DNA of 64,000 nt from Sandaracinaceae bacterium (GTDB taxonomy: Bacteria > Myxococcota_A > Polyangia > Polyangiales > Sandaracinaceae), in the NCBI GenBank assembly GCA_040218145.1, contig JAVJQK010000113.1:186001-250000 (forward strand), read 5' to 3'. How positions within the stretch are numbered: position 1 is the first letter of the stretch; each line of letters begins with the position of its first letter. The notes beneath the pieces are model-generated. The model worked only from the letters and a program-made list of their open reading frames with translations, made no database searches and had not been told where the DNA came from. Positions 5,760 through 21,121 of this stretch are shown in pieces. The translations under genes and the position numbers were made by a program.

Positions 5760-6356
5760 TCAGAAGGGACGCTCGGGCACGAACAGGATGTCACCCGCCC
5801 GGACCCGAAAGTCCTCACGAGCGCCCATCGTAATCTGGTCCAAAGGGACTGCGTAGCGCCGCATGCGCCCGTCTACGCGCCGTGTGACGATTGCCCCATC
5901 CCTACTGGCGAGGTCGGTGGTCCCACCTGCGAGCTGGACGGCTTGAAGGACCGTCAGGCCAGGGCTGATCGTGTAGTTGCCGGGCGTTCGGACTGCGCCG
6001 GAGACGCTCACGCGCTTGCTGTTGTACTCGGTGACCAGGACCGAGACCTGCGGACGAACCAGGACGTCGCTCTCCTGGAGGTGACGTTCGAGCAGGTCGG
6101 CCACCTGCGTGGGCTCGAGCTCGGCGACTTCGACGCGGCCGATGTACGGGAAGTCGATGGTCCCATCCTGCGCCACCCGGTAGTTCGTCGAGAGGTCCGC
6201 CTCGCCGTAGACGCGCACGTCGAACACGTCGCCAGCCCCTAGGGTCGTGTCATCGTGGTCGGTGGACGGAGGCGGGGTTGAGAGCCCGGTCGGCCCGCAC
6301 CCGACCGCGAGCAAGGCGGCCGCCAGCACGGCCAGCGAAATGGACGAACGATACAT
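5760..6356 (-). CDS. Wza-like polysaccharide export lipoprotein
   Basis: 198 aa from the ATG at 6356; a GTG at 6386 would add ten residues. A signal peptide ends in the lipobox LLAVGC with the lipidated Cys near residue 20. A Poly_export domain follows (GAGDVFDVRVYGEADLS, then DGTIDFPYIGRVEVAELEP), then an SLBB domain (VSVSGAVRTPGNYTI, LTVLQAVQLAGG). Proteins of this type form or line the outer-membrane channel for capsule and exopolysaccharide. At ~200 aa it is shorter than E. coli Wza (~380 aa) and has one SLBB domain, as in many myxobacterial and EpsA-like exporters. It is last in a minus-strand operon and faces its expected partner, the Wzc-like kinase. Confidence 0.9.
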   Translation of the reverse strand: MYRSSISLAVLAAALLAVGCGPTGLSTPPPSTDHDDTTLGAGDVFDVRVYGEADLSTNYRVAQDGTIDFPYIGRVEVAELEPTQVADLLERHLQESDVLVRPQVSVLVTEYNSKRVSVSGAVRTPGNYTISPGLTVLQAVQLAGGTTDLASRDGAIVTRRVDGRMRRYAVPLDQITMGAREDFRVRAGDILFVPERPF

Positions 6357-6398
6357 CGACTGCGTTGGTGACTGCGCGAGCCCCACGCGTTCATCCGC

Positions 6399-7781
6399 TC
6401 AGTAGAACACTCGGGCGCCGAACCACGCCTGGAACTTGTTGAACCCGGCGGGGTCGATGATGGCCATGTCAGGAGGAGGAGTAGCCACCCGGTACTGATA
6501 GTCGGTGAACGCTCCGGTGTACTGCAGCGTCGCGTTCAGCCCCAACCAGTCCGTGAACCGGTACTCGCCGAAGAGCGAGACGTCGAGCCGATAGTCCCCG
6601 CGAGTCAGCGTCGTGCCCAACGCCATCCCATCCGGCTGGACGATTCGCCCGAACTCGTAGTGACCAAAGCCAGCCTCCGTCCCGAGCATGAAGCGACCGT
6701 CGATGAGCCATTGGAAGGTGGCGTAGCCGCGATCGCGTCGATACCAGTTGCCGATGAAGGACGGCTGGAAGTCGCGCTCGTAGCCGAACGTGAGCCGAGT
6801 GGGCTCGGAGATCTGCCAGCGAGCTTCGACCTGAGCCACGACCGACTCGTACTCTTGGTCGTACGAGGCCAGCCCAGACTCGAAGAAACCCGCCGCATAG
6901 CCGACCATGGCGAGGAAGGAGAAGTTGGAGGTCAGAGCGCCGTTGAGTCCGATCCGGGACCGGAGGGTGTAGGCGTCGTTCGTGAGGACTGGCGCCATGG
7001 AGGCGTCGCCGAAGTAGTCCAGAGCGACGAAACTCGTGTCGTGCACGATGGCCGTCTGAGGGAGGAATCGGAAGGTCTCCGTGAGGGACACGGTGTGCGT
7101 GAACCGGTTTCCCCACTGAAAGAACGCGTCCTCGAAGAACGTCAGCCCAAATCGGTAGCCCGGGGTGATCTTGAGGACCTCGCCAGGGGTCGCAAAGTTG
7201 AGTTGGAGCCCGACGTCGTTCTGCAGACGGGCGTAGCTAACTCTCGTCATCGAGTTCTCGGTGAACGGACGAATCGAGCGGCCGAACTCTTCGGTGAGGC
7301 TGACGGAGAAGGCGCGGCCGGGGAGGATGGCGAGCGCGAGGCTGGCGTCAACCTCCATGTTGCTGCGGTCGAGATCGTTGAAGAAGGTATAGAACGCGCC
7401 ACTCACACCGCCTCGAAAGGTGACACTCGGGAGCGACGCGTTCTGGTTGTTCGCTTCGCCGCCCCCCGCTTCGCCCTCCTGGCGCCGCTGCGCACCGCGC
7501 GTCGAGAAGAGCAGATGCGCGGTAGCTCGCAGCACTCCGGTGTCGACGACCGGAAAGACCTCGTCGTCGTCCGAGTAGTAGAGGTTCGAGTCGTACCCGA
7601 TCTCGACGCCCAGGCCAGGGTGGAGTTCGAAGTCCCCAACGCGAAAGCCCGGCCCCTCCGTGCGCGACCGGTCCGACATCCAGGCCTGCGCAGCCGCGCC
7701 GGACGGAAGGACCGCGAAGGCCGTCACGAGGGCCACGCTCAGGCAAGCAAGCCAACGAAAGTAACGCAAGGGGGTCTCCAT
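6399..7781 (-). CDS. outer-membrane beta-barrel protein of exopolysaccharide locus
   Basis: 460 aa from the ATG at 7781 (an ATG at 7814 would add 11). The signal peptide ends GAAAQA. The rest is a series of alternating aromatic/hydrophobic strands typical of an outer-membrane barrel (LKITPGYRFGLTFFEDAF, TRLTFGYERDFQPSFIGN) and finishes with FQAWFGARVFY, a C-terminal aromatic as in barrel proteins. It resembles the outer-membrane beta-barrel (BBP2-like) proteins often found in exopolysaccharide clusters, where they may help polymer cross the outer membrane. It sits 12 bases upstream of the Wza-like gene in the same operon. Family placement is from pattern, not from a search. Confidence 0.75.
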   Translation of the reverse strand: METPLRYFRWLACLSVALVTAFAVLPSGAAAQAWMSDRSRTEGPGFRVGDFELHPGLGVEIGYDSNLYYSDDDEVFPVVDTGVLRATAHLLFSTRGAQRRQEGEAGGGEANNQNASLPSVTFRGGVSGAFYTFFNDLDRSNMEVDASLALAILPGRAFSVSLTEEFGRSIRPFTENSMTRVSYARLQNDVGLQLNFATPGEVLKITPGYRFGLTFFEDAFFQWGNRFTHTVSLTETFRFLPQTAIVHDTSFVALDYFGDASMAPVLTNDAYTLRSRIGLNGALTSNFSFLAMVGYAAGFFESGLASYDQEYESVVAQVEARWQISEPTRLTFGYERDFQPSFIGNWYRRDRGYATFQWLIDGRFMLGTEAGFGHYEFGRIVQPDGMALGTTLTRGDYRLDVSLFGEYRFTDWLGLNATLQYTGAFTDYQYRVATPPPDMAIIDPAGFNKFQAWFGARVFY

Positions 7782-7830
7782 GGGGCGTCGAAGCACGTGC
7801 CCGAGTCCAGTCATCCGAGGACGTCTCGTC

Positions 7831-8436
7831 CTACTCGCCCACGCTCGCGGGAGGCGGAATGAACGGGACGCTCGGTGGGCCGGGATCCTGGATGACCAGG
7901 TCCTCCTCCGGTGTGCCCGGGTCGATGTCGGTCACGACGCGCGTGGTGCCGGTCTCGAAGATGTCCTGGCCGATGCAGGAGTTGGCCTCCTGCTCGAGGG
8001 TACGGAAGGCCTGGCCGATGACGGTGATGACGGTGAACTCGTGGTTGCGCCGCTCGCCGTCCCGGATGTTGATGGCCTCTTCGAGGGTCTCTTTGCGGCT
8101 CTGGAGCTGCCGCAGCCGCGCGTTGATCTGCGTGAGCTTGTCGTTCAGGCAGGTGACGCGGATGATGTCGCGCTCGCGGCGGGCCTCGTCGAGCATGGCC
8201 AGGACGCGACGGCTGATCTGGGTGCCGCGCTCCTCGAGGCGCTCGGCCTCGGCCAGCTGCTCCTGGGGAGAGAGCTGTGCGCGACGGCGAACGGGGAGCT
8301 CGCCCTCCACGTCACCGTCGACGTCGCCTTCTTCTACTTCGTTCTCCGCGTCCTGCGCGATGGCGATGCCGAAGCCAGTGGCTCCTAGCAAGGCCCCCAC
8401 GAGGAGCGCGATGAGCGCTCGTCGTCCGTCAAGCAT
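7831..8436 (-). CDS. exported coiled-coil protein, unknown function
   Basis: 201 aa from the ATG at 8436, chosen because GGGAGGGG lies a few bases upstream and a promoter lies just beyond. The N-terminus is a signal peptide (ALIALLVGALLGATGFGIAI, then AQ). An acidic linker follows, then a long charged coiled coil (about residues 60-130, EQLAEAERLEERGTQISRR), then an Asp/Pro-rich tail. Two cysteines (VTCLND and NSCIGQD) could form a disulfide. It is first in the operon with the barrel and Wza-like genes, so a periplasmic role in polysaccharide export is likely, but I do not recognise the family. Confidence 0.75.
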   Translation of the reverse strand: MLDGRRALIALLVGALLGATGFGIAIAQDAENEVEEGDVDGDVEGELPVRRRAQLSPQEQLAEAERLEERGTQISRRVLAMLDEARRERDIIRVTCLNDKLTQINARLRQLQSRKETLEEAINIRDGERRNHEFTVITVIGQAFRTLEQEANSCIGQDIFETGTTRVVTDIDPGTPEEDLVIQDPGPPSVPFIPPPASVGE

Positions 8437-8462
8437 GGGATCCCCTCCCGAATAGGGTGCCG

Positions 8463-8490
8463 AGTATATCGGCGGGCGCTGCCAAGTCAA
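8463..8490 (-). promoter_or_regulatory. sigma-70 promoter of the export operon
   Basis: On the minus strand TTGACT and TATACT are separated by 16 bases. The start of transcription would fall near 8456, about 20 bases before the ATG at 8436, leaving room for the ribosome-binding site. It is among the best sigma-70 matches seen in the window. Confidence 0.7.
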
Positions 8491-8735: not shown

Positions 8736-10202
8736 CTATTGCTGTGGGGCGAAGACGAACGGGTAGGCGAAGGTGACGTTTCCGCCCTCCGGACCCGGGT
8801 TGAAGCGGAAGCGGCGGATCGTGTTCACGACGCAGCTGGCGACCGCGGGGCTGCCCGTGGTGTTCTCCTGCGCCGTGGCGCCGCTGACGGTGCCGGTGGG
8901 CTGGATGGTGAAGCGCACGAGGACGCGGCCCGCGAGCGTGGGGTTGTTGCGGAGCTCACGCTCGTAGCAGGTCTGGATGGCGCGGATGCGCGCCCGGATC
9001 TGCCGGGTGACGATGCTCGGGTCGAAGACGCCCGAGCCGCTCTCGTCCTCGAGGGCGCCCGCGTTGACGCGACCGCGGATGACGCGCTCGACGATCCGCT
9101 CGCCCTCCTGCTGCTGCTGGCCTGCGCCACCCTGGCGCGCCTGGAGGCCGCCGAGGCCCGCGGTGCGGCCCCCCACGCGTCCGCCGCCGCCGCGCTCGCG
9201 GAGGCTGCCCCCCTCGGCGCTGGTCGCGACGCCGACGCCTTCGGCCTGCGCGAGCACGTCTTCGGCGCTGCCCGTGACGGCGCCGCCCGCGAGCACGTCC
9301 TGGAACGCGCCGTCCGCGCCACCGAGGGCGCCGAGGAGCATCTGCTCGACCTGGGCCTGGGCCTCCTCGACCGCGAGGCGCGCGTCGGAGTCGGCGCGGC
9401 TCTCGCCGCTGCTGCTCGTGGGCTCGCTCTGGCTCGAGGGCTGCTCCTGCTGCTGGGTCGGGGCCTCGGCGACCTCTTCGACCGCCTCCTCGACCTCTTC
9501 GGCGACCTCGACCTCTTCGACCTCTTCTTCCTGGGGCGGCTCGGGCTCGTTGAAGATGAGCTCGGCGACGCGATCCGGGATGGTGGCGATGGTCGGCTCC
9601 ACCGGCCAGTCGGCGTTCTCCAGATAGATGACGAACCCGAAGTGGGTCATGAAGGAGAACATCACGAAGGCCGTGAACAGCCAGTCGATGCCCGCGATGA
9701 AGCCGCCGACGACCGCGGCCGGGAGCTGCGGGCGGGGCTGCACGGGCGGCGGGACGACGAACTGGAAGAGCAGCGTGGTGTCGCCGATGACGACCTTGCC
9801 GCGCGAGGTGTCGTTCAGCTTGACCTGGTAGTAGCCCTGGGCCTTGCGCGCGCCGCCGCTCTTGCGCAGCTCCTCGATCTCCTGGACGCCGCCCGGGAGG
9901 CCGACGCGGCCGCGCATCTCGTCGGTGAAGTTGAGGATGTAGTCGCTGCCGACGAGCTGGAACAGCTCGAAGCGGGAGCTGAGGCCACCCGCGGTCACGA
10001 CGAAGTGGTTCTTCTCGGAGGAGCCGACGGTGACGGTCTCCCGCCTCCGGATGATCCGCTCCTCGACGATCTTGCCGCCCTGGATCAGGCCGATGCGAAG
10101 GACTTTCGGGCCGCTCGGGCGCTGCTGGACGGCCTGCATGGCCATCGTCATCGCCCCGGGGCGGCCCCTACCCTGTCGCTGCGGCTGTTGGCTGGTGCTC
10201 AT
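8736..10202 (-). CDS. AgmX/PglI-type TonB-like envelope protein with FHA-like N-terminus
   Basis: 488 aa. Residues ~35-160 look like an FHA-type fold (TVTVGSSEKNHFVV, LSSRFELFQLVGSDYIL). A membrane helix follows at ~175-200 (LFTAFVMFSFMTHFGFVI), then a Glu/Val-rich acidic stretch, a long Gln/Ser/Gly-rich periplasmic linker, and a C-terminal AgmX/PglI-TonB domain (QTCYERELRNNPTLAGRVLV, then SCVVNTIRRFRFNPGP) with two conserved cysteines. In Myxococcus, GltG/GltJ and NfsG have this layout and span the inner membrane and periplasm of gliding and spore-coat machines. Here it lies downstream of an ExbB-like channel and TPR proteins, so the same kind of job is inferred. Confidence 0.85.
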   Translation of the reverse strand: MSTSQQPQRQGRGRPGAMTMAMQAVQQRPSGPKVLRIGLIQGGKIVEERIIRRRETVTVGSSEKNHFVVTAGGLSSRFELFQLVGSDYILNFTDEMRGRVGLPGGVQEIEELRKSGGARKAQGYYQVKLNDTSRGKVVIGDTTLLFQFVVPPPVQPRPQLPAAVVGGFIAGIDWLFTAFVMFSFMTHFGFVIYLENADWPVEPTIATIPDRVAELIFNEPEPPQEEEVEEVEVAEEVEEAVEEVAEAPTQQQEQPSSQSEPTSSSGESRADSDARLAVEEAQAQVEQMLLGALGGADGAFQDVLAGGAVTGSAEDVLAQAEGVGVATSAEGGSLRERGGGGRVGGRTAGLGGLQARQGGAGQQQQEGERIVERVIRGRVNAGALEDESGSGVFDPSIVTRQIRARIRAIQTCYERELRNNPTLAGRVLVRFTIQPTGTVSGATAQENTTGSPAVASCVVNTIRRFRFNPGPEGGNVTFAYPFVFAPQQ

Positions 10203-10266
10203 CCTGGTCTTTCCCCATCGTCACCCGCGCTGGCGGGGGGTCGGCAGACATCTGTCCCGGGGGTCC

Positions 10267-10304
10267 GACGCCATCCGTGCGGGAAGGTTCCCGACCGTGG
10301 CGTC
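10267..10304 (-). terminator. composite hairpin between ExbB-like and AgmX-like genes
   Basis: GACGCCA (10267-10273) pairs with TGGCGTC (10298-10304), and inside this CGGGAA pairs with TTCCCG around two bases. It lies in the 129-bp gap between two genes read in the same direction. It may end or process the upstream operon transcript; there is no T-run on the minus-strand side. Confidence 0.5.
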
Positions 10305-10331
10305 ATTTTCGCCGCCGAAGCCTAACACCGC

Positions 10332-11084
10332 CTAGGCGGAGGGGTCCAGACGGGATGCGTCGTCGGAGGCGTCGCGCGCCTCGTCTGCGAGGTCGTGCTC
10401 GGTGTGGTCGTCGATGTGGTCGTCCACCGGGTCATCGGTCGGTGGGACCGGATCCTTCACCCCCACCTTGGGACCGCCCGACGCGCGGTCGGCGGCCGGC
10501 TCCTGCCCGAGGGCCTCTTCGACCGAGGCGACGACGCGGCGGCTCTCGGCGAGGCGAGCCTTCGCGATCTTCTTCAGCACGGTCCAGGAGCCCAGCGCGA
10601 GGCTGGAGGTGCTGATGCCGATCGCGATCGAGATCACGGCGCGTCCGAGGCCGATGTTCTCGACCAGGCCGGCCTGGAGGCGCATGAGGCCGTGATCGCC
10701 GATGAAGATCCAGCCGATGCTGAGCGCGGCCCCGAGGAAGCCCAGGGCGGAGCCGATCGAGGCGCTGATCCGCAGCCCGCGCATGCCGCGCGCCGCCCTC
10801 CCCTCGACGTCCATCATGGCGTCCTCGAGGTCGATGACGCGATCGTCGTCGCGTCGCTCGGGGTCCAGGAGCGGCCAGACGCACTCGGCGACCCAGGCCG
10901 GGAGCGCGTCTCGGGTCAGCGCGGCGGCTCGCTCGTGCTCGCCGGCCCGCAGGAGCTGAACCAGGGCGCGGCGGAAGGCGCCCGCGTCCAGCGCGGAGCG
11001 GAAGGCCAGCGTGCGCACGCGCTCGACGACGAGGGCGAGCACCGCGGCGAGGAAGAGGCCCTGGAAGACGTGAAAGACGATCAC
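10332..11084 (-). CDS. MotA/TolQ/ExbB-family proton channel protein
   Basis: 250 aa from a GTG. An N-terminal membrane helix (FQGLFLAAVLALVVERV) is followed by a cytoplasmic segment and two more helices, GSALGFLGAALSIGWIFIG and GRAVISIAIGISTSSLALGS, in the positions expected for the TolQ/ExbB core. The tail is Asp/His-rich and disordered. ExbB/TolQ/MotA proteins carry protons and drive TonB-like partners, which fits the adjacent AgmX-type gene; AglR plays this part in M. xanthus gliding. No ExbD/TolR partner is visible in this window. The match is by topology, and the sequence is divergent. Confidence 0.75.
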   Translation of the reverse strand: MIVFHVFQGLFLAAVLALVVERVRTLAFRSALDAGAFRRALVQLLRAGEHERAAALTRDALPAWVAECVWPLLDPERRDDDRVIDLEDAMMDVEGRAARGMRGLRISASIGSALGFLGAALSIGWIFIGDHGLMRLQAGLVENIGLGRAVISIAIGISTSSLALGSWTVLKKIAKARLAESRRVVASVEEALGQEPAADRASGGPKVGVKDPVPPTDDPVDDHIDDHTEHDLADEARDASDDASRLDPSA

Positions 11085-11189
11085 GGGGAGCGGTCAGCGG
11101 AGCACGAACGAGATGAGGGCGCACCCACGCTCAGCATCCACGCTCAGCGGGCACGCCCGCTCGACCGACGCGTTTGCGGGAAGTTCCGC

Positions 11190-11453
11190 TCAGAACGGCT
11201 CGTCCTGCACGCTCCGGATCACCTCGCGCACGAAGCTGGTCCTCAGGTCGAGGACCTCGTAGCCGAGGTTGCTGCGGTTGAGGATGTAGAAGGCGTTCGG
11301 CTTCTGGACGCGGCCCTCGATCCGGATCTCGTCGAGCTGGATGACCTGCGGCGCGCGGCCACGCGAGCTCTGCGCCTCGGCGTCGCTGGGGGCGAGGAGC
11401 CAGGCGGAGACGGCGACGGCGCTCGCGAGCAGGATGGCGTGGGTGGTCTTCAT
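11190..11453 (-). CDS. small exported protein of the TPR/AgmX cluster
   Basis: 87 aa with a signal peptide (ILLASAVAVSAWLLAP, cleavage near AEAQ). The mature part is about 60 residues and contains QVIQLDEIRIEGRVQKP and NAFYILNRSNLGYEVLDL. Short periplasmic proteins with a similar IxIEGxVQKPxAFY pattern occur beside AgmX/TonB genes in related bacteria, from memory. The start has a ribosome-binding site (GGAAGAC). It lies 37 bases after the TPR lipoprotein gene and before the ExbB-like gene on the same strand. Function unknown; contact with the AgmX-type protein is inferred from position only. Confidence 0.7.
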   Translation of the reverse strand: MKTTHAILLASAVAVSAWLLAPSDAEAQSSRGRAPQVIQLDEIRIEGRVQKPNAFYILNRSNLGYEVLDLRTSFVREVIRSVQDEPF

Positions 11454-11490
11454 GGTGTCTTCCGTTCGAACGTCGGCCAGCTCGGGTTCT

Positions 11491-12987
11491 TCACTCGCCG
11501 CCGCCTTCGCCGCCGCCCTCTTGCGCTTCCTGGGCCTGGCGCGCGGCGCGCGCGGCCTCCCGCTCGGCGCGGGCCCGATCCCGCTCGATGGCGCGCTGCT
11601 CGCGCTCGATGAGGCGGCCGAGCTCTTCGAGGTACGTGCTGGACGGGTCGTCGCGCGGCAGGCTCGGGCCCATCAGCTCGCGGTAGCGGTTCAGCTCGGA
11701 GACGGCGCGCTGGTAGGCCTGGAGGTTGTTCATCCCCGGGTACTGCTCGCCGGCCTCGCGGTACATCATCGCCAGGTTGAAGTGGACCTCGGCGTTGCGC
11801 GGCTCCATCTCCTGGACGCGATCGAACTCGGCCTGGGCCTGCTGCCACTGCTTGGTCGCGCGGAGCGCGTCACCGAGCGCGAGGCGGACCGCGGCCACGC
11901 CCGGCGCGAGCCGAGACGCGGTCTGGAACTGCTGCAGCGCCTCCTGGTAGTTGCCGGCCGCGAGCTGCTGGAGACCCAGCGCCATGCGCGCCTCGGTGTA
12001 GGAGGGCTCGAGCTCGATGGCGCGGCGGTAGCTCGCGAGCGCCGGCTGGAGCTGGCCCGCCTCCTGATGCATGCGGCCCCGGAGGTAGTGCAGCTCCGCG
12101 TCCGAGTCGCTGGTCTGAAGCGCCTGGTTGAGGATGGACTCGGCCAGCTCGGTGCGGCCGAGGCGGAGGTTGGCTTTGACGAGCACGGCCATCGCGGGCA
12201 CGAAGCGCTCGTCGCGGCGCAGGGCCCGGCGCGCGGCCTCGATGGCCTCCTCGGGGCGGTTCGCCTGCACGAGCACGTCACCGTAGATGGCCTGCACGGC
12301 GAGGTTGCGGATCCACTGCTCCGCGAGCGGCCGCACGAAGCTCAGCGCCTCGTTCGCGTTGCCGCGCCGGAGGTGGATGCGCGCGATGCCCTCGATGGCG
12401 CGCTCGTAGTCGGCCTGGATCCGGAGCGCCTGCTGGTAGAGCTGCAGCGCGCGCGCGTCCTGGCCCGCGCGGTCCGCGAGCACGCCGAGGTTGTAGGCGG
12501 CCTTGTAGGCGTTGCCGTCGGCGCGGAGCGCCTCCTGGAAGGCCTGCTGGGCCTGGGCGCTGTCGCCCGAAGCCGCCGCCTGGAGGCCGCGACGGTAGGC
12601 GGCCTGCGCGGAGCCGTTCATCGGTCGGCGGGGCGGGAGCGGTCGGCCGGTGTCGGCCTCCGGGCGGCCCCACGGCGACTCCTGGTCTCCCTCGGGAGAG
12701 GTGCCGCCACCAGTCCCCGCGCCGGTCCCGCCGCCGTTGCCGGGCTGGTTCTCGAGGTCGCTGTCGGGCAGCTCGTCCGGATCCACGCTCCCGGGCGGGG
12801 CCTCGAGCTCGGCGCGGTCGCCGCCCGTGCCCCCGCCGCCGGTGTCCTCGCCGCCGGTGGTGGAGTCACCGGGCGTGGCGTCGTCGTCGGACGTGCCCTC
12901 GTCGCACCCGGCGCCGTAGAGGCCGAGCCCGAACATCAGGCCGCTGAACAGCAGGCCGCGAAAGAACCGGCCGCGGAGCGCTCGCAT
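11491..12987 (-). CDS. TPR-repeat lipoprotein of envelope machine
   Basis: 498 aa from the ATG at 12987, which overlaps the stop of the gene before it (TGATG). The N-terminus has a signal sequence and a lipobox-like site (LYGAGC, Cys near residue 28). A ~90-residue Gly/Thr/Asp-rich linker follows. About eight TPR units then run from ~residue 120 to 400 (for example DNAYKAAYNLGVLADRAG-like and HYLRGRMHQEAGQLQPALAS), and the protein ends in a charged Arg/Ala/Glu helix. It is comparable to the TPR outer-membrane lipoproteins of the Glt and Nfs complexes (GltE/NfsE). That link rests on domain layout and neighbours. Confidence 0.85.
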   Translation of the reverse strand: MRALRGRFFRGLLFSGLMFGLGLYGAGCDEGTSDDDATPGDSTTGGEDTGGGGTGGDRAELEAPPGSVDPDELPDSDLENQPGNGGGTGAGTGGGTSPEGDQESPWGRPEADTGRPLPPRRPMNGSAQAAYRRGLQAAASGDSAQAQQAFQEALRADGNAYKAAYNLGVLADRAGQDARALQLYQQALRIQADYERAIEGIARIHLRRGNANEALSFVRPLAEQWIRNLAVQAIYGDVLVQANRPEEAIEAARRALRRDERFVPAMAVLVKANLRLGRTELAESILNQALQTSDSDAELHYLRGRMHQEAGQLQPALASYRRAIELEPSYTEARMALGLQQLAAGNYQEALQQFQTASRLAPGVAAVRLALGDALRATKQWQQAQAEFDRVQEMEPRNAEVHFNLAMMYREAGEQYPGMNNLQAYQRAVSELNRYRELMGPSLPRDDPSSTYLEELGRLIEREQRAIERDRARAEREAARAARQAQEAQEGGGEGGGE

Positions 12988-15900
12988 CACTCGTCCTCCC
13001 GGGCCAGCGGCGGCGCGGTGACGCCGCTGTCGATGTCGATGTGCTGGCCGCGGCGCGCCCGGCGGAACTCGTTGGGCTGGTAGGCCGCGAGGCTCGCGTC
13101 CTGGCCGCGCTGCTGCTCGATGCACTCCGCGATGCGCTCCTCACCGTACGCCTGGAGGCGGTCGATGGCTTCGCGCGAGTACTCGTTGTCGATGTTGCCC
13201 CGGACCGCGGCCCGGGCCGCGAGCGAGTAGCGGACGACCGCGTAGCACTCGATGGGGCGGACCTGGCCGTCGAGCACCTGGCGGACCCGGTCCTCGAAGG
13301 TGAAGCGGACCTCGTCCTGCACCTCGGGCGAGGCGCTGCGGATCTGCCGCTGGAGGTCGCTCGGCATGGTGATGGTCGCGTTGAGCACGGCCCGCGCGAG
13401 GATCTCGTAGGCGCGACCCTGGCGCGTCAGCGCCGCGATGGTCCAGGTCGGCCGGCGGTAGGCGAGGATGGGCTCGTAGCCCTCCGCCGTGCTCTGGGTC
13501 CGCGTCGAGCCCTGCTGGATCTGGCTGTTGAGCTCGTTGACGAACGCCTCGGTCGTGCTCTGCCGGCCCGGGTTCACCTCGAGGCTCTCGAGCTGCCCGA
13601 TCGACGGGTCGACCAGGGTGAAGCGGCTCTCGGCCGCGTACTCGGCCGCGATGCTGCCGGGCTCGCCGTTCATGCGCTGGAAGGCGTTGACGACGTCCTG
13701 GAGCGCGTCGCGCTGCGTGCTCTCTCGCGCGCGCTGCTCTCGCCGCGCCGCCGCGATGCGGTGGTAGGCCTGCACGACGAGCTCCGTCGCCGCCCGGTCG
13801 TTGCGGTAGCGGTCGATGAACGACTGCATCTCGCGCGCGGCGTTGCTCCACTGCTCGCTCTTGAACGCCATCTCCGCCACGCGGTAGCGCGCGTTGCGCT
13901 GGTCGGCGGGGTCGGTCAGCCGCTCGGCCGCGCGCTGGTAGTACTCCGCCGCGCGGCGGTAGTTCTGCTGGAACTCGAGGATGCGGGCCGCGTTGATGAG
14001 CGCGTCGGTGATGCGCTCCGGCATGTCCGTGTCGGTGCTCTGCTGGAAGCGCCGCGAGTCCGCGATCTGCAGGTAGTTCTCGACCGCGCGGTCGTAGTCG
14101 AAGAAGCGGTTCGCGGTGTAGGCGAGGCGGAAGTAGGCCGTCGCGAGGATGCCCTCGAGCTCGGTCTCTCGCTCCCCCTCCGCGTCGTCGAGCATCGGCG
14201 TCACCTGGTCGATCACGCGCTGGTAGATCTGACCGGCCGAGTCGAAGCGCTGGGTCCGCTCGAGGGCGAGCGCGGCCTGCAGGAGCGCGACCGGCGCCTG
14301 CGGGTGGTTCGGCTCGTCGTTGACGGCGTTGACCAGCATCGTCGCGCTCTGCTCGTACAGGCGGCGCTGCTCGTCACCCTGCGCGCCCTCGGCCTGCGTG
14401 AAGATCTCGAGCGCGCGCTGGTAGCGCACGTTGGTCAGCACGGTGCCCGCGGTGCAGAGCGGCGAGTCGGCGTTGGCCTCGTCGTCGCACCAGTTGTCGA
14501 GCTGCTCTGCGTTCTCGAAGGTCGGGCCGTCGGGCGTGAAGGTGCAGCCCCGGCGCTGGACGTCGCGGCTCAGGCGCTCCGCCTCCGGGGTGTCGCCCAT
14601 CGCGACGGCCATGTTGTAGAGGCTGTCCCACGCGACCTGACCGGTCGGGTTGGCGTTCGGGCCGCTGCAGCGCTCCTCGTAGATGCGCAAGAAACGCTGC
14701 CGGGCCTGGGGCCAGTAGCCGTAGTAGTAGAGGAGGAGCGCGTTGTTGTAGTCGTACGCCGCGCGCACGCCCTCGCTGTCCTGGGCCTCGGGCACCCGCG
14801 CCAGGTAGACCTCGCGGGCCTGGGCCAGGCGCTGGACCATCAGCGGCATCTCCATCGGCGTGACGCGCGGCGGCGTGCCGGTGGGCTCGGGGATGTCCTC
14901 TTCACCCATGCGGATGTCGAGGCTGCCCTGCTCCTCCGCCTGCTCGACGAGGCGCTTGAGCGACTCGACCACGCGGCGCGCGGACTCGCTCAGGAAGCGG
15001 TCGTCGAGGTTGCTGTCGCGCACGGCGGCGTAGACGCGCGCCGCCTCCTCGTACTGCTCCGACCAGAAGAGCGCGTCGGCCAGGTTGTACTGGAGCTCGT
15101 ACGCGTTGGGGCTGTTCGGGTAGTTGTTGAGGTAGGCCTGGTAGGCCTGCGCCGCGAGCCCGTACTCCTGCAAGGCCTCCTGCAGGCGCTGCTCGGAGCG
15201 CTCGCGGACCGCCTCCTGGCGGAGGATCTGGGCCTGGCGGTGGTGGCGCGTCGCGTCGTTGATCAGCGCGCCCTCGGCGAGCTGCTCCGCGCGGCGCTGC
15301 TCCACCGGGTTGTCCATGTTCTGGTTCCACCAGTCGGAGCCCTCGCGGTAGTCGCCGAGGCGAGCCTGCGCCTCGAGGGCGCGCTCCATCTCCTGGTGTC
15401 GCTGCCACGCCCGCGCGATCTGCGCGGTGATCTCCGGCGCGCGCGAGGAGTTCGGCCAGCGCGACAGGGCCAGCTCCCACACCTCGACCGCCTCCGGGTA
15501 CTTGGCCTCCTCGAAGTAGACCTGGCCGAGCTCGAAGTAGATCTCGCTCGTCCAGCCCCGGTCCTGCGGCAAGACGTTCGGGTTCTGGATCCGCTGGATG
15601 CCGCGGGGCATCCCCTCCTCGTCGTCCGGGATCTGGTTCTCGTTCCAGTCGTCGTACGCGAAGGTGATGCCGAGGTACTGCACCGCCTCGCGGCGCAGCT
15701 CGGTGCCGGCGCGGCCGGTCTGGCGCAGCTGCTCGTCGGACCACTCGATCAAGCGCGAGAAGTGCTCGATGGCCTCGGGGTAGCGGCTCGCCCGGTAGTA
15801 CGCCCAAGCCACCTTGTAGAGCGCGAGGTTGTAGTTGCGGTCGGTCGGGTCGGCGAGGACCTTGCCGTAGGCGCTGATGGCCCGGTCGAGCGCGTGGGGC

Positions 15901-16925
15901 TCGAAGTCGAAGTCGAAGTGGTACTCGCCGATGCGGAGCCACACCTCCATCACGAAGCGCGCGTCGGGCGTGACCGGCGTGCAGCCCGCGTAGGGGTCGT
16001 CGAACGGCATCGTCTCGTTGCCGAGGGTGCCGCCGAGGCCGAGCGCGGGGTGCTCCTCTTCGCTGAAGCCCTCTTCGCCTCCGGGCGGGGGCTCCGGGGC
16101 CGGGGGCTCGCCCGTGTAGTCGAAGCGGTTGGCGCAGACGAGGTTGAGCCACGCGAGGCGGGCCTCCTCGTTGCGCGCCATCTCGTTGAGGCAGTAGCCG
16201 ATGAGGTAGTAGACGCCGTCGATGCGCCGGTAGTCGGGGAAGCGCTGGATCAGGGCCCGGTAGAGCTCCACCGTCTCGCTGAAGTCCGGCACGCCCATGG
16301 CCTCGCCCGCGGCGGCGGCCTCCTGGTAGGCGATGGCGGCGCGCTCGTAGTAGAGCTCGCCCAGCCGGAACATCGCGTCGGGGGTGTAGTTCGGGTCGTC
16401 CGGGTAGCGGCGGATGAACGCCTCGAAGAGCCGGATGGCGCGCTCCATCGCCTCGTTCTGGAGGCGCTCCTCCTCGCGGATCTGACGCGCGTAGCCGGCC
16501 TGCCGCTCGCGGCGGCGGCGGTGGTACTCGCGGACGAGGATGGAGTTGACCGAGCCCCGGTAGGCGCTGCCCGACTGCATGAAGCGGCGGACCTCCGCCT
16601 CCATCTCACGCAGGGCCTGGATCTGCTCCGGGCTCGGCGGCGGCCGGTCGTCGTCGATGCGGCGGTCGGTCGTGTCGAGGAAGGCCGGGTTCGGGACGTC
16701 CGTCGTGTTCGCCCACGGGGGCGGCGGCATGTCCGAGAGGCTCTGGCCGGGCCCGGGCATCGGGAGCGGCTCGCGGCTCACGGGGCCCGCGGGCTGGCCC
16801 TGCGGGCCGTCGCCTTCCTGCGCGCGCGCCGTCGACAGCCCGGACGTGAGCGGGCCCGCCCCGAGGAGCGTGGTCAGCCAGGCCGCCGTGAACGCGAGGC
16901 GCCGTAGCGTCGATTCGAAGCGCAC
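12987..16925 (-). CDS. large exported TPR protein, 1312 aa
   Basis: The start is taken as the GTG at 16925, which overlaps the stop of the upstream gene (TAGTG); the reading frame stays open further upstream but only inside that gene. A signal peptide (LAFTAAWLTTLLGAG, then STARAQ) leads into a long chain of TPR-like units such as DAMFRLGELYYERAAIAYQE, PNAYELQYNLADALFWSEQY and RAAEYYQRAAERLTDPADQ. A short Cys-bearing region near residues 795-830 (including FTPDGPTFENAEQLDNWCDD) may hold disulfides. It is probably periplasmic. Giant TPR proteins (for example AgmK/GltI) occur in M. xanthus motility loci, and this one may act as a scaffold. No enzyme motif seen. Confidence 0.88.
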   Translation of the reverse strand: MRFESTLRRLAFTAAWLTTLLGAGPLTSGLSTARAQEGDGPQGQPAGPVSREPLPMPGPGQSLSDMPPPPWANTTDVPNPAFLDTTDRRIDDDRPPPSPEQIQALREMEAEVRRFMQSGSAYRGSVNSILVREYHRRRRERQAGYARQIREEERLQNEAMERAIRLFEAFIRRYPDDPNYTPDAMFRLGELYYERAAIAYQEAAAAGEAMGVPDFSETVELYRALIQRFPDYRRIDGVYYLIGYCLNEMARNEEARLAWLNLVCANRFDYTGEPPAPEPPPGGEEGFSEEEHPALGLGGTLGNETMPFDDPYAGCTPVTPDARFVMEVWLRIGEYHFDFDFEPHALDRAISAYGKVLADPTDRNYNLALYKVAWAYYRASRYPEAIEHFSRLIEWSDEQLRQTGRAGTELRREAVQYLGITFAYDDWNENQIPDDEEGMPRGIQRIQNPNVLPQDRGWTSEIYFELGQVYFEEAKYPEAVEVWELALSRWPNSSRAPEITAQIARAWQRHQEMERALEAQARLGDYREGSDWWNQNMDNPVEQRRAEQLAEGALINDATRHHRQAQILRQEAVRERSEQRLQEALQEYGLAAQAYQAYLNNYPNSPNAYELQYNLADALFWSEQYEEAARVYAAVRDSNLDDRFLSESARRVVESLKRLVEQAEEQGSLDIRMGEEDIPEPTGTPPRVTPMEMPLMVQRLAQAREVYLARVPEAQDSEGVRAAYDYNNALLLYYYGYWPQARQRFLRIYEERCSGPNANPTGQVAWDSLYNMAVAMGDTPEAERLSRDVQRRGCTFTPDGPTFENAEQLDNWCDDEANADSPLCTAGTVLTNVRYQRALEIFTQAEGAQGDEQRRLYEQSATMLVNAVNDEPNHPQAPVALLQAALALERTQRFDSAGQIYQRVIDQVTPMLDDAEGERETELEGILATAYFRLAYTANRFFDYDRAVENYLQIADSRRFQQSTDTDMPERITDALINAARILEFQQNYRRAAEYYQRAAERLTDPADQRNARYRVAEMAFKSEQWSNAAREMQSFIDRYRNDRAATELVVQAYHRIAAARREQRARESTQRDALQDVVNAFQRMNGEPGSIAAEYAAESRFTLVDPSIGQLESLEVNPGRQSTTEAFVNELNSQIQQGSTRTQSTAEGYEPILAYRRPTWTIAALTRQGRAYEILARAVLNATITMPSDLQRQIRSASPEVQDEVRFTFEDRVRQVLDGQVRPIECYAVVRYSLAARAAVRGNIDNEYSREAIDRLQAYGEERIAECIEQQRGQDASLAAYQPNEFRRARRGQHIDIDSGVTAPPLAREDE

Positions 16926-19327
16926 TACTCCAGCTCCTCGGTGTCCGAGCCGTCGTCCGTGGTCTCGTCCATGATCTCGCGGAATTCGTCGTCCAGCGCG
17001 CGCATCTCTCTCGCCCGCTCGCGGGTCAGGATCTCGACGCGCGTGCGGTGCTCCTCGCGCCGGGCCCACGAGACGTCGATGCGCCCGACGTCCGCGCGCA
17101 GGACCAGGTCGTAGAAGCGGTGCTGGACCTGTCGGAAGTTGTGATAGGTGACCGCGCCGACGACCTCCTCGGTCTCGGTCTCGAGGTCTCCGAGCGCCGC
17201 GCGGTAGCCCACGATGCGCTCCGACTCGGTGCGAAGCTGGCCCTGGATCTCGGTCACGCGCTCCTGAACGATGCCCTGGATCTGCTGCTCGCGCTGGTCG
17301 AGCTGGCTCTCGACGCGGGTCAGGCGGGTGAAGAGGCCCGCGAGCTGCGAGTCGCTGAGCCGCTCCTGGACCTGCTGGGTCAGGCGCGCGTGCTCCCGGC
17401 GCAGGCGGTCGTGGCGCTCGTAGCGCGCGTCGCCCGGACCGACCTGGAGGCGCGAGGCCTCGAGCGCGATGCGGAGCTGCCGGATCATCTCGCGGTACTC
17501 CGCGACGGCCGCGCGGTGGCCGGAGAGCTCGTTCCGGATGGCCGCGACGCCCTCGGCGTCACGCTGCTCCTCGGTGTCCTGCATGTAGCGCTCCATCGCC
17601 ACGATGCGCGCCTCCATGCCCTGGAGCTCGACCTCGAGCCGACCCAGGTCCCGCCCGAGCCGGCGATAGCGGCCGAGCACCTCGTCGTCGAAGTCGGCCA
17701 GCTCGCCCTCGTCGGTGGGCATGCCGCTGAAGAAGCGCTCGAGCCGCCGGATCTCGGACAGGGTGCTGGCGAGCTGCTGCGCCTCCCCGGGGTGGCGCTG
17801 CTCGTAGACGCGCAGGAGGTCGCGGCGCGTGCGCGCGATCCGGTTCCGCAGCGCGGTCGAGCGCTCCATCTGGAGCCGCAGGTCGGCGAAGATCGCGACG
17901 CGGTTCGGCTGGGCCAGCGCGGCCTCGAGCCGCTCGACCAGCTCGCTGGTCTCGCGGACCAGGCGGCGCGCCTGCGAGAGGTCGGAGAGCACGCTGAGCG
18001 CGCGATCCATGTCGCCCTCGAGCTCCGCCCAGCGCTGCGCCAGCGGCGGCAGGAACGCGTTGGCGTCGAAGCTCTCCATGTTCTCGCGCACGAGCCCGCG
18101 GAAGTACGCCTGGGGGTCGGCGTGCGCGTTCATCATCTCGTCGAGCTCCTGGCGCACCGGGCCGAACTCGCGCGCCACCTCCCGGAAGATCCGGTTGGCG
18201 TCGTCGAAGCGGCCGTTGCGCAGGAGCAGGTTGCCGCGGAGCAGCTTGCCGTCCGGGATGAAGCGGCTCTCGGGCGCGGCGACGCTGAGCACCTCGAGCG
18301 CGCGCTCGGCGCGGGTGCTGTCACCCATGCGGATGTAGACCCAGGCGATCTCGTAGAGCGCGACGTCGAAGTTGGTCGAGGTGCGCGAGACGGCCTGGTA
18401 GGCCTCGACCGCCTGGTCGAGCTGGTCGGTCTCGTAGTAGAGGCGCCCGAGCGCGAGCTGCGTCAGCTCGATGACCTCGCGCTGCTCGTCGGTCTCGGCC
18501 GGGGCTCGGAGCACCCGACGGAAGGCCTCGATCGCCTGCGGGTACTGCTCTCGCAGCGTGTAGATGACGCCGATGAAGTAGCGCGCCTGCGGGTAGTAGG
18601 GGCTGCCCGCCTGGACGCCCTCGAAGGCCTGACGCGCCTGGTCGAGCATCGACTGATCGATGCGGACGGTCGTGGCCGAGCCGCCCTCGGTTCCGTCGCC
18701 GATGGCGCGGAGCACGTCCTCGGTCGGGACGGCGCGGTTGTAGAGGTACTTGGCGCGGTAGTAGTTGGTCGTCGCCTCGATCTCGCTCGGCGGGATCCGG
18801 CTGAGCTGGGCGAAGTAGCCCTCCACCCCGTCGAAGTCGCGGGTGTGGATGGCGATCTCGATGAGCCGACCGAGCGCGCGCTGCACGTGGTCTCGGTACG
18901 CCCGCTCGCCCGTGTGCTGGATCAGCTCACGGAAGCGGGTGCGCGCGCCGAGGTAGTCCCCGGCGCGGAAGAGGCTGTCGCCCAGCAGGAACAGCGCGTC
19001 CGGGTAGGCGCGATGCGTGCCGTAGTTCTCCACGATGTCCGTGAAGATGATCGAGGCGCGGATGTAGTCCTGCAGGCGGTAGAAGAGCTCGCCGTCCGCG
19101 AGGCGCTCCTCCACGAAGGTCTCGCTCCTGAGGCGGGAGCGCCGGAGCGGCTGGCCGGTGAGCTGTCGCGCGTCGCCCTCGAGGTCGACGACCTCGCGCG
19201 TGACCTGTTCGACGTTCTGCGCCGACGCCATCGACGCCGCGCTGGCCCCGATCAGGAGAGACGCCGCAGCCGCGAGCCGCGCCAGAGCGCGATCGCGGCG
19301 AGCGGGCGGGTCGGACCGCCGCTGCAT
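16925..19327 (-). CDS. exported TPR/coiled-coil protein, 800 aa
   Basis: Start taken at the ATG at 19327, which overlaps the stop of the upstream gene (TGATG); a GTG lies one codon before it. A signal peptide (ALARLAAAASLLIGASAASM, cut near ASAQ) precedes TPR units over about residues 60-400 (DALFLLGDSLFRAGDYLGAR, ARYFIGVIYTLREQYPQAIE). After ~residue 400 the protein becomes long charged coiled coil (EGDMDRALSVLSDLSQARR, VQERLSDSQLAGLFTRLTRV). The tail is acidic. This resembles periplasmic TPR components of the Glt/Nfs type. Coupled start and stop codons with both neighbours suggest that the proteins are made in fixed ratio. Confidence 0.87.
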   Translation of the reverse strand: MQRRSDPPARRDRALARLAAAASLLIGASAASMASAQNVEQVTREVVDLEGDARQLTGQPLRRSRLRSETFVEERLADGELFYRLQDYIRASIIFTDIVENYGTHRAYPDALFLLGDSLFRAGDYLGARTRFRELIQHTGERAYRDHVQRALGRLIEIAIHTRDFDGVEGYFAQLSRIPPSEIEATTNYYRAKYLYNRAVPTEDVLRAIGDGTEGGSATTVRIDQSMLDQARQAFEGVQAGSPYYPQARYFIGVIYTLREQYPQAIEAFRRVLRAPAETDEQREVIELTQLALGRLYYETDQLDQAVEAYQAVSRTSTNFDVALYEIAWVYIRMGDSTRAERALEVLSVAAPESRFIPDGKLLRGNLLLRNGRFDDANRIFREVAREFGPVRQELDEMMNAHADPQAYFRGLVRENMESFDANAFLPPLAQRWAELEGDMDRALSVLSDLSQARRLVRETSELVERLEAALAQPNRVAIFADLRLQMERSTALRNRIARTRRDLLRVYEQRHPGEAQQLASTLSEIRRLERFFSGMPTDEGELADFDDEVLGRYRRLGRDLGRLEVELQGMEARIVAMERYMQDTEEQRDAEGVAAIRNELSGHRAAVAEYREMIRQLRIALEASRLQVGPGDARYERHDRLRREHARLTQQVQERLSDSQLAGLFTRLTRVESQLDQREQQIQGIVQERVTEIQGQLRTESERIVGYRAALGDLETETEEVVGAVTYHNFRQVQHRFYDLVLRADVGRIDVSWARREEHRTRVEILTRERAREMRALDDEFREIMDETTDDGSDTEELE

Positions 19328-20154
19328 CACTCCGCCCCCGATTCTCCGCTGTCCCGACTTTCCTCTCCACCGCGGCGCGAGGCCTGGACCCGCTCCTGGT
19401 AGCGAATGGCCGGGCGCTCCTCGAGCGGCGCGGTGGGTCCGCCCTTCTCGTAGCCGACCACCCGGATGGTGATCGCCTTCCCCTCGGGCGCCGTGAAGGA
19501 GTAGTTCGAGCGGACGCGGAAGCGGTAGCCCTTGAGGTACGAGAAGATGCCGTAGCCGTGGCCTCGGTACTCGAGGTTCACGGTCAGGGTGTGCTCGCCC
19601 GGCACGATGCTGCCGTCATAGATGTCGAGCTCGCGGCGCTCGCCGAGCGAGCCCTCCTCGTCGGCCTTGCTGAAGATCCGGGCGCCGTCGAGCGCGTAGA
19701 CCGCCTTCACGAGCCGGTAGCTCGAGCTCATCCGGTTCTCGTGCACGATGACCGCCTGGGCCCCCGCCACGACGCCCTGCAGCACGGTCTCCGCCAGGAG
19801 CGAGAGGCGGGCCTTGGAGCGGAAGATCTGCTCCTTCAGCTCGTTGATCCGCTGCTCGAGATCGCGAAGACGCACGGCGTAGGTGCCGGCGTCCATGCCC
19901 TCGTCTCGCTCGGCGCTGGTCCGCGTGTCGGCAGACTCCGCGCCTGCCTCGGCGCCTGCCTCGGCGCCCGCTTCAGTGCCCGCTTCGGCGCCGGTTTCCG
20001 CCTCGGCGCCAGCTTCGGCGCCAGCCTCCGCGTCGGAGGTCTCGGGAGCCGCTTCTTCCTCCTGCGCGATCGCACCGCCCCCCATGAAGAGGACCGAGCT
20101 GGCGACGAAGGTAGCAACCGCGACGGTCGCCGAGAGCGCAATCACCCTGCGCAT
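19327..20154 (-). CDS. exported Ala/Glu-rich protein, first gene of the TPR cluster
   Basis: 275 aa from the ATG at 20154, which has a strong ribosome-binding site (GGGGGAG). A signal peptide (VAVATFVASSVLFMGGGAIA) is followed by a low-complexity stretch of repeated GAEA units (about residues 35-75), a short coiled coil (RLRDLEQRINELKEQIFRSK) and a C-terminal beta-rich domain (RELDIYDGSIVPGEHTLTV, GYGIFSYLKGYRFRVRSN). Proteins of this layout sit at the head of TPR/AgmX clusters in myxobacteria and are often mislabelled dihydrolipoamide acetyltransferase because of the Ala/Glu repeats (from memory). No lipoyl site is present. Its role is unknown; it is probably periplasmic. Confidence 0.8.
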   Translation of the reverse strand: MRRVIALSATVAVATFVASSVLFMGGGAIAQEEEAAPETSDAEAGAEAGAEAETGAEAGTEAGAEAGAEAGAESADTRTSAERDEGMDAGTYAVRLRDLEQRINELKEQIFRSKARLSLLAETVLQGVVAGAQAVIVHENRMSSSYRLVKAVYALDGARIFSKADEEGSLGERRELDIYDGSIVPGEHTLTVNLEYRGHGYGIFSYLKGYRFRVRSNYSFTAPEGKAITIRVVGYEKGGPTAPLEERPAIRYQERVQASRRGGEESRDSGESGAE

Positions 20155-20254
20155 CGCATCTCCCCCTGCTGTTTCAGCAGCATATCTGACAAGCGCGTTT
20201 CGGAGCCGAGCGCGGCTTCCGCCAAGGGCTCCCGCCGGAGCATACGGGAACTCG

Positions 20255-20269
20255 GATTCCTTCGGAATC
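20255..20269. promoter_or_regulatory. palindrome at the expected transcription start
   Basis: GATTCC and GGAATC flank a 3-base loop, giving a perfect inverted repeat just downstream of the -10 box at 20277-20282. It would fall at about +1 to +15 of the operon mRNA. It could be an operator or a 5' stabilising hairpin. Confidence 0.45.
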
Positions 20270-20276
20270 TCAGGGG

Positions 20277-20305
20277 CGTATAGCAACCGCCATTTTTTCG
20301 GTCAA
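20277..20305 (-). promoter_or_regulatory. sigma-70 promoter of the TPR/ExbB cluster
   Basis: On the minus strand TTGACC and TATACG are separated by 17 bases, the last part of the spacer reading GGTTGC. It lies about 120 bases upstream of the ATG at 20154 and would give a leader of that length, which also holds a CTGCTG/CAGCAG hairpin just before the ribosome-binding site. Confidence 0.6.
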
Positions 20306-20509
20306 CGTGCATCTGTCCGGCCGCACGCCGCGGAGCCCCCTCGCTGCAGGGAACTCCGAACGCGGCCCAGTCCCGGTTAGAATCCGCCACCGGTCGATGC
20401 CCTGTAGTCTCCATCCGCCCGTTCACGAGTGCCGTAGATCCTTCCGCGCCCTCGTCCGTCTCGACGTGGGAACGCACCGGACCGGCTCACCCGAGGAGCT
20501 CGGACGGTG

Positions 20510-21121
20510 ATGGAGACCCCCGACGACCTCTCCGACGAGGAGCTGCTGAGACGATTCAACGAGGGCGACGCGGACGCGTTCGAGCGGCTCGTTCGGCGCT
20601 ACGAGCGCCCGCTCTACAACTTCATCCTTCGCTCCGTCCGGCGCCGCGAGCGCGCCGACGAGCTGCTGCAGGACGTCTTCTTGAAGGTCGTGCAGCGCTC
20701 ACGGGACTTCAAGGGCAACTCCAAGCTCTCCACCTGGCTCTACACGATCGCGAGAAACCTGTGCATCGACCACAGCCGAAAGATGGTGTTCCGGCGACAC
20801 AAGTCGCTCGATGCCCCCTCGCGCTCCGGCGAGGAGGAGGGGCCCACCCTCCTGGAGCGGCAGGCGTCGGACGCGCCGGAGGCGGACCGGGCGGCCATCG
20901 CGAAGGACCTCCAGGCGCGCATCTCGGTCGCGGTCGAGGAGCTGCCCGAGGAGCAGCGCGAGGTCTTCCTGCTGCGGCAGGTGGAGGGCATGGCGTTCAA
21001 GGAGATCGCGGCCGTGGTCGGGGTGCCGGAGAACACCGTGAAGAGCCGGATGCGCTACGCGCTCGAGCGCCTGCAGCGGGCACTGGACGAGTATCGGGAC
21101 TACGTTCGAGAGCTGAAGTGA
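20510..21121 (+). CDS. ECF RNA polymerase sigma factor
   Basis: 203 aa from the ATG at 20510 (a GTG sits one codon earlier); GAGGAG lies 11 bases upstream. Region 2 is clear (DADAFERLVRRYERPLYNFI, then LLQDVFLKV and STWLYTIARNLCID), as is region 4 (LPEEQREVFLLRQVEGMAFK, then EIAAVVGVPENTVKSRM). There is no region 1 or 3, as expected for extracytoplasmic-function sigma factors. The next gene, 11 bases on, encodes a zinc-finger anti-sigma-like protein, so activity is probably controlled by it. Divergent from the TPR cluster, whose promoter lies ~220 bases away. Target promoters are unknown. Confidence 0.93.
   Translation: METPDDLSDEELLRRFNEGDADAFERLVRRYERPLYNFILRSVRRRERADELLQDVFLKVVQRSRDFKGNSKLSTWLYTIARNLCIDHSRKMVFRRHKSLDAPSRSGEEEGPTLLERQASDAPEADRAAIAKDLQARISVAVEELPEEQREVFLLRQVEGMAFKEIAAVVGVPENTVKSRMRYALERLQRALDEYRDYVRELK

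Follow-up and report, generated by a model that had tools for sequence, protein, structure and literature searches.

A run of seven minus-strand genes in a Sandaracinaceae genome encodes a machine of the family of the Glt gliding and Nfs spore-coat machines, and the ExbB-ExbD-ExbD motor that related operons carry between gltF and gltG has decayed in this run to a single pore-dead membrane protein, here called ExbX. The run lies in a window of 64,000 nucleotides (nt), by which we mean the whole stretch of DNA that was analysed (contig JAVJQK010000113.1 of assembly GCA_040218145.1), and an outer-membrane barrel and a short OPX polysaccharide export protein follow it on the same strand. We read the locus as a machine of the type of Myxococcus xanthus cluster G4, built together with a polysaccharide translocon, whose own motor has decayed and which a proton motor encoded elsewhere in the genome (contig C65) likely drives; we give this reading a probability of about 0.58. 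The genes concerned are the following, with lengths in amino acids (aa) and positions in the window.

19327..20154, minus strand: P6, exported protein with an Ala/Glu-rich stretch, a coiled-coil helix and a beta-sandwich, the marker of the machine
16925..19327, minus strand: GltC-like periplasmic TPR protein, 800 aa (NF033756, 8.8e-29)
12987..16925, minus strand: GltD-like periplasmic TPR protein, 1312 aa, between GltC and GltE (TPR families)
11491..12987, minus strand: GltE-like TPR lipoprotein, 498 aa (NF033758, 6.6e-30; lipobox LYGAGC)
11190..11453, minus strand: GltF/CglF-like exported protein, 87 aa (NF033764, 4.4e-5)
10332..11084, minus strand: ExbX, pore-dead ExbB-family membrane protein, 250 aa (profile comparison and fold)
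8736..10202, minus strand: GltG-like protein, 488 aa (NF033760, 9.9e-51; NF033768, 2e-27)
7831..8490, minus strand: exported coiled-coil protein, 219 aa, with homologues that follow GltG in most loci of relatives
6399..7814, minus strand: outer-membrane beta-barrel, EpsL/BBP2-like, 471 aa (TIGR03014 EpsL, 4.3e-5)
5760..6386, minus strand: short (class 3) OPX polysaccharide export protein, 208 aa (PF02563, 3.6e-21, plus SLBB; EpsY model, 1e-26)
3017..5353, plus strand: Wzc-type chain-length protein with fused tyrosine autokinase (PCP-2A), convergent (TIGR01005, 7.4e-82; TIGR01007, 8e-58)
467..2968, plus strand: Wzy/O-antigen-ligase-type polymerase, neighbour (PF04932, 2.8e-12)
20507..21121, plus strand: ECF sigma factor, divergent, upstream of P6 (Sigma70_r2/r4)

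The seven genes, transcribed in the order P6, GltC-, GltD-, GltE- and GltF-like, ExbX and GltG-like, were predicted by the initial annotation at this place and on this strand, and both the open reading frames (ORFs) and a coding-type GC pattern bear this out (for the ExbX frame, GC is 0.76/0.48/0.93 at codon positions 1-3). The same annotation had the first four junctions overlapping, which is one too many: only the first three of the six overlap (TGATG, TAGTG and TGATG), and the last three are gaps, of 37 nt between GltE and GltF and then of 105 and 129 nt. Chance ORFs were rejected as an explanation because homologues stand in the same order around ExbX in 26 loci of the window's taxonomic order, some of them truncated at contig ends. 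The AgmX/TonB protein, the exported TPR proteins and the TPR lipoprotein of the initial annotation are likewise real. GltG has an FHA-like cytoplasmic part, one transmembrane (TM) helix, a periplasmic linker and an AgmX/TonB C-terminal domain, and its tail matches TonB_C (2.6e-6) besides NF033768; the N-terminus of GltE is that of a lipoprotein; and the core of the small GltF/CglF-like protein is strongly conserved in relatives. The window's GltD is homologous to the GltD of two further clusters of its own genome, on contigs C63 and C35.

The operon is old and widespread in Myxococcota. The P6 profile (A1) matched 204 of 284 genomes of the phylum, small ones included and mostly in single copy, and the order P6-GltC-GltD-GltE-GltF-slot-GltG recurs phylum-wide in the sampled loci. 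Among the best 80 loci of a scan of named genomes with a narrower P6 alignment (A4), carriers include Sorangium cellulosum and Minicystis rosea. The metagenome-assembled genome MED-G138 belongs to practically the same species as the window's genome. No Pfam or NCBIfam family was found for P6, and its predicted structure (pLDDT 69.9) gave no significant match in a fold search against the PDB. In some lineages a tandem pair of P6 genes opens the operon (L128, L212, L216, L218, L219 and L221).

What fills the slot between gltF and gltG differs between lineages. Outside the window's order, a complete ExbB-ExbD-ExbD motor was found there in 17 sampled loci (with a single ExbD detected in L157) and also in six named loci; of these six, five are sister to the window's order in the tree of P6 and GltC. 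Within the window's order, the slot holds ExbX alone, or a more diverged ORF of about 190 aa (Polyangiaceae, including Sorangium and Minicystis), or nothing. The Polyangiaceae ORF aligned with ExbX at an hhalign probability of 96.9%, against 0.1-0.2% for controls. By parsimony on the same tree, the status of the embedded motor changes seven times. The window's run holds no ExbD or TolR gene, just as the initial annotation had noted, and ExbD genes were found elsewhere in the genome. The missing ExbD is thus a lineage-specific loss from an operon that carries ExbB-ExbD-ExbD elsewhere in the phylum. Family f28 (genome G105; loci L144/L312) has an independent, half-decayed in-operon ExbB with no ExbD detected, and its genome has a stand-alone motor.

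Stand-alone motors were surveyed by running the in-operon ExbB profile on 42 and then on 14 genomes. We observed that 21 of the 24 genomes without an intact in-operon motor carry a motor of this subfamily on its own, in contrast to none of the 22 with one (Fisher p 3e-10, a value that ignores relatedness). Every sampled member of the window's order has this motor as one of a divergent pair of ExbB-ExbD-ExbD sets, at C65:184071 and C65:185421 in the window's genome. The C65 locus (L064, 4844-10222) persists across the whole of the window's order and includes, beside the a-type set, a conserved 340-aa protein without a known family. In the ExbB trees, the stand-alone clade (100/99) nests inside the in-operon clade, and the stand-alone b-type motors form one clade across lineages that are kept apart in the operon tree. 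The stand-alone clade may stem from one ancient duplication with reciprocal loss, from transfer or from repeated relocation, or may reflect a long-branch effect.

These results bear on the view that the machine uses no motor at all and is a static periplasmic scaffold running from the inner membrane to the translocon, with ExbX as a structural leftover that anchors GltG. The loss of both ExbD genes and of the pore residues of ExbX would fit such a scaffold, as would the lineages in which the slot gene has gone and the rest of the operon is kept. However, the distribution of the same-subfamily stand-alone motor (21/24 against 0/22) is hard to explain for a motor-free machine, and GltG retains its TM helix and TonB-type domain, so that we consider a static scaffold unlikely.

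The second part of our reading concerns the genes that follow GltG. According to the initial annotation there was no obvious barrel; this does not stand, since a 219-aa exported protein, the 471-aa barrel and the 208-aa OPX follow GltG on the same strand, just beyond the seven genes, at gaps of 245, 16 and 12 nt. The OPX carries Poly_export (PF02563) and SLBB domains only, without a membrane-spanning domain, and an OPX of this short class (class 3) needs a separate barrel (PMC9603273, PMC9601211; these two papers, PMC3169522 and PMC7310880 are cited throughout for selected passages). Assignment of the barrel rests on Pfam and NCBIfam, with BBP2_2 (a porin family) matching 13 of 24 members of its family (best 6e-13); its profile found nothing among PDB sequences. 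The 219-aa protein matched no family. Among loci across the phylum with at least 3.8 kb beyond GltG, the barrel lies downstream of GltG in 30/34 and the OPX in 24/34, irrespective of the state of the motor. Genome-wide there are only three OPX genes, and the barrel/OPX pair was not found in the stretches of C35 and C63 that were examined. Next to the OPX, and convergent to the operon, come Wzc and then Wzy, and Wzc homologues stand beside the operon in 6 other loci. The neighbouring genes suggest that the cargo is a secreted sugar polymer. On the other side of the operon, the ECF sigma factor and a zinc-finger/TPR protein, likely its anti-sigma factor, diverge upstream of P6 (20507-22569) and may regulate it; homologues of the sigma factor occur at about 18 other loci of P6-type operons.

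The core GltC-D-E-F-G is present in the order of the Glt/Nfs superfamily, and hits to the NCBIfam gliding models were obtained for GltC, GltE, GltF and GltG, which supports the Glt/Nfs-like domain set that was first proposed for the run. All of these matches are far under the equivalog cut-offs, with 101 bits against 450 for GltC, 104 against 225 for GltE, 23 against 90 for GltF (CglF) and 173 against 650 for GltG. Contig C35 of the same genome carries a canonical-like Glt cluster (L060) with GltC, GltD, GltE, CglF, a full-length FHA GltG and a 2,903-aa TPR protein, and there GltG reaches 451, GltC 278 and CglF 66 bits. Pfam and NCBIfam scans of the window's run gave no GltI/GltJ and no GltA/B/H-type part. 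As for Nfs, the order C-D-E-F-G is common to both, no A/B/H-type genes were seen in the run and no NCBIfam Nfs model matched it. A simple orthologue of Glt or of Nfs was rejected on account of the far sub-cut-off scores and the far higher ones of C35. Because a much closer Glt cluster lies on C35 in the same genome, the window's operon is a paralogue in its own right, the third of the Glt/Nfs family in this genome, and neither Glt nor Nfs. The "third version" of the initial annotation is therefore distinct and a separate paralogue, though probably one with a precedent: by its locus tags, the M. xanthus cluster G4 stands beside the same OPX/barrel pair. Contig C63 also carries a Glt-like cluster (L063, 9501-19539), with an OMP_myx_plus barrel, a P6 homologue, GltC, GltD, a GltF-like protein and GltG; no GltE or motor was seen in it. 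On contig C1 (L062, 8279-12961), a 1,561-aa protein combines a sortase-target/VIT-type region, a GltG/AgmX TonB-like domain and TPRs.

The operon could still be a gliding (Glt) or sporulation (Nfs) machine with the polysaccharide genes as incidental neighbours, and the matches of five of the seven proteins to gliding models, GltC, GltE, GltF and GltG among them, point that way. Against this, beyond the low scores and the better cluster on C35, the adjacency of barrel and OPX is kept phylum-wide and is absent from the C35 and C63 stretches, and the presence of the operon in 204/284 genomes extends to small ones. We regard a gliding or sporulation role as quite improbable.

ExbX was not detected by Pfam, by NCBIfam or by a whole-genome PF01618 scan. 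Profile comparison with hhalign relates it to the canonical ExbBs of its own genome (98.0%, E 2.7e-13, 185 columns) and to in-operon ExbBs (98.7%, E 3e-16), while unrelated profiles used as controls stayed at 0.1-0.2%. Its AlphaFold model has a pLDDT of 85.8, and the top 50 PDB matches in Foldseek were all TolQ, ExbB, MotA or PomA, with E-values about 1e-3 and TM-scores of 0.3-0.6. ExbX thus has the three-TM ExbB fold and sequence homology to the ExbB/TolQ/MotA/AglR family. Yet the pore threonines of TM2 and TM3 are present in 0/20 ExbX proteins at each position, against 26/26 ExbBs. These threonines are part of the ring that coordinates the ExbD aspartate in MotA, ExbB and TolQ (PMC12204202), and no invariant polar residue takes their place in ExbX. 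The Glu of ExbB TM3 was dropped as a candidate lost pore residue, in-operon ExbBs lacking it too. The "ExbB-type channel" of the initial annotation is therefore an ExbB homologue by profile and by fold, and very unlikely to be a working channel.

The ExbX family diverges very fast, with long branches and no invariant columns, and the frame is open in all members examined. In six pairs the ratio of non-synonymous to synonymous substitutions (dN/dS) was 0.09, 0.20, 0.27, 0.27, 0.56 and 0.62, above that of the neighbouring genes in most pairs and yet below 1 in each. We conclude that ExbX is a kept, fast-evolving and probably non-conducting protein. It might nevertheless remain a channel subunit, mixing with an AglR-type ExbB or taking an ExbD from another locus and conducting by another route, and its confidently predicted ExbB fold and topology and the purifying selection on it would agree with this. 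Because the threonine ring is absent in 20/20 members, with no invariant polar replacement, a working channel appears very unlikely from sequence, and the very fast divergence of the family speaks against it as well. A dying pseudogene without present function, as the long branches, the lack of invariant columns and the outright loss in several lineages might suggest, is more improbable still and was rejected, given the open frames, the coding-frame GC pattern and the purifying selection seen in all six pairs.

The closest precedent for the locus comes from M. xanthus. Its cluster G4, of unknown function, includes a gltD homologue, MXAN_1922 (PMC3169522); WzaB and WzpB of the pathway for the polysaccharide BPS are MXAN_1915 and MXAN_1916 (PMC9603273). 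In the passages on mxan_1915 the gene is called orphan-like, lying 1 Mb away from the other genes of the pathway, and its assignment to BPS drew in part on gene contiguity in Sandaracinus amylolyticus, a member of the window's family (PMC7310880). The seven locus tags between the OPX and gltD fit the order of the window, namely OPX, barrel, 219-aa protein, GltG, slot, GltF, GltE and GltD, and by these tags the M. xanthus motor slot would have room for at most one gene. Going by the published locus tags, the locus would be of G4 type and probably has a precedent. The cited passages on G4 and on BPS make no link between the two. GltJ (NF033761), tried as a marker of Myxococcaceae, matched nothing in the 284 genomes of the phylum or in the order of G103.

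Several observations weigh against a translocon-bound machine powered from outside its operon. In G188, G106 and G129, three genomes with no motor in the operon, the related stand-alone type is missing as well and the other, AglR-like type is the only one present. The barrel and the OPX are not downstream of the operon in some relatives, close family members L071 and L072 included. A Ser-xxx-His motif in the TonB-like helix of GltG is kept here and not in all relatives: as SFMTH (window position about 10000) it is found in Sandaracinaceae GltG, and the order's other families have Phe or Met in place of the His, which makes it too variable to serve as a sign of motor contact. In M. xanthus, a polar mutant of MXAN_1922 (G4) and a deletion of MXAN_3004 (in the second motor, M2) showed no appreciable motility defect (PMC3169522), and strains without BPS are compromised in swarm spreading dependent on type IV pili (PMC7310880). 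Because the G4 mutant moves normally and the BPS-minus strains swarm poorly, G4 may be dispensable for BPS in M. xanthus.

The reading we favour, a G4-type machine joined to a polysaccharide translocon and powered in trans, can be put as a mechanism. GltG would be the inner-membrane component, with GltC, GltD, GltF and P6 as periplasmic parts and GltE as a lipoprotein, and the short OPX and the 18-strand-type barrel would form the translocon. Ancestrally, a TolQR/AglRQS-type motor belonging to the operon itself lay between gltF and gltG; in the window's lineage both ExbD genes have gone, and the ExbB, its ion pathway lost, has turned into ExbX. Its place as working stator has most likely passed to the stand-alone ExbB-ExbD-ExbD set on C65, which would energise GltG in trans. 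Within the family, AglR contacts GltG in a two-hybrid assay (PMC3169522), Nfs together with AglRQS moves a glycan (PMC3858216) and GltG/GltJ resemble TonB (PMC9389320). The C65 motor would rotate or pull GltG, whose TonB-like arm would pull the scaffold of GltC, GltD, GltE, GltF and P6 and in this way act on the OPX/barrel translocon in the export or positioning of a BPS-like polysaccharide. ExbX would probably serve beside GltG, near the borrowed motor, as a subunit for docking in the membrane or for assembly. Beyond this, we tentatively raise the possibility, which we hold to be doubtful, that selection has kept ExbX, after the move of its motor to a different locus, as an adaptor docking GltG to a motor shared among machines, so that one proton motor would power polysaccharide secretion and possibly also the gliding machine and further Glt-type ones.

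What the additional Glt-type clusters (G4, G5) and the second motor (M2) of myxobacteria do was left open in 2011. At the window's locus, wzc, wzy, the OPX, the barrel and a Glt-type operon stand side by side, and we propose that G4 may be the engine of a BPS-type polysaccharide translocon, driven by a stand-alone motor of AglRQS type. The decayed and relocated motor and the conserved tie to polysaccharide export go beyond the initial annotation. Moreover, full motor, pore-dead ExbB, more diverged protein and empty slot form a natural series in which one can ask what a non-conducting stator subunit does.

Compared with known systems, the operon shares with M. xanthus Glt and AglRQS the core GltC, GltD, GltE, GltF and GltG (PMC3169522), but its run has no counterparts of GltA/B/H/I/J/K and a separate Glt cluster lies on C35. 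With the Nfs spore-coat machine, which handles glycan (PMC3858216), it has in common the C-D-E-F-G order and a paralogous core; in place of NfsA/B/H-type barrels it has P6 and the OPX/barrel pair. The Group B core complex of gamma- and deltaproteobacteria (AglRQS with GltC, D, E and G) has the same parts as the motor-bearing form of the operon (PMC3169522), whereas the window's form has lost the motor and adds GltF, the barrel and the OPX. Like the composite OPX/beta-barrel translocons EpsY/EpsX and WzaB/WzpB, the locus has a short OPX (Poly_export and SLBB only) adjoining an outer-membrane barrel; unlike them it joins this pair genetically to a Glt-type machine, of which the passages cited from PMC9601211 and PMC9603273 make no mention. 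The closest likeness is to M. xanthus G4 with WzpB/WzaB, where, with the gene order taken from locus tags alone, GltC/D/E/F/G-type genes have an 18-strand barrel and a short OPX as neighbours (PMC3169522, PMC9603273), but the Wzc and Wzy genes that are adjacent in the window are 1 Mb away there (PMC7310880).

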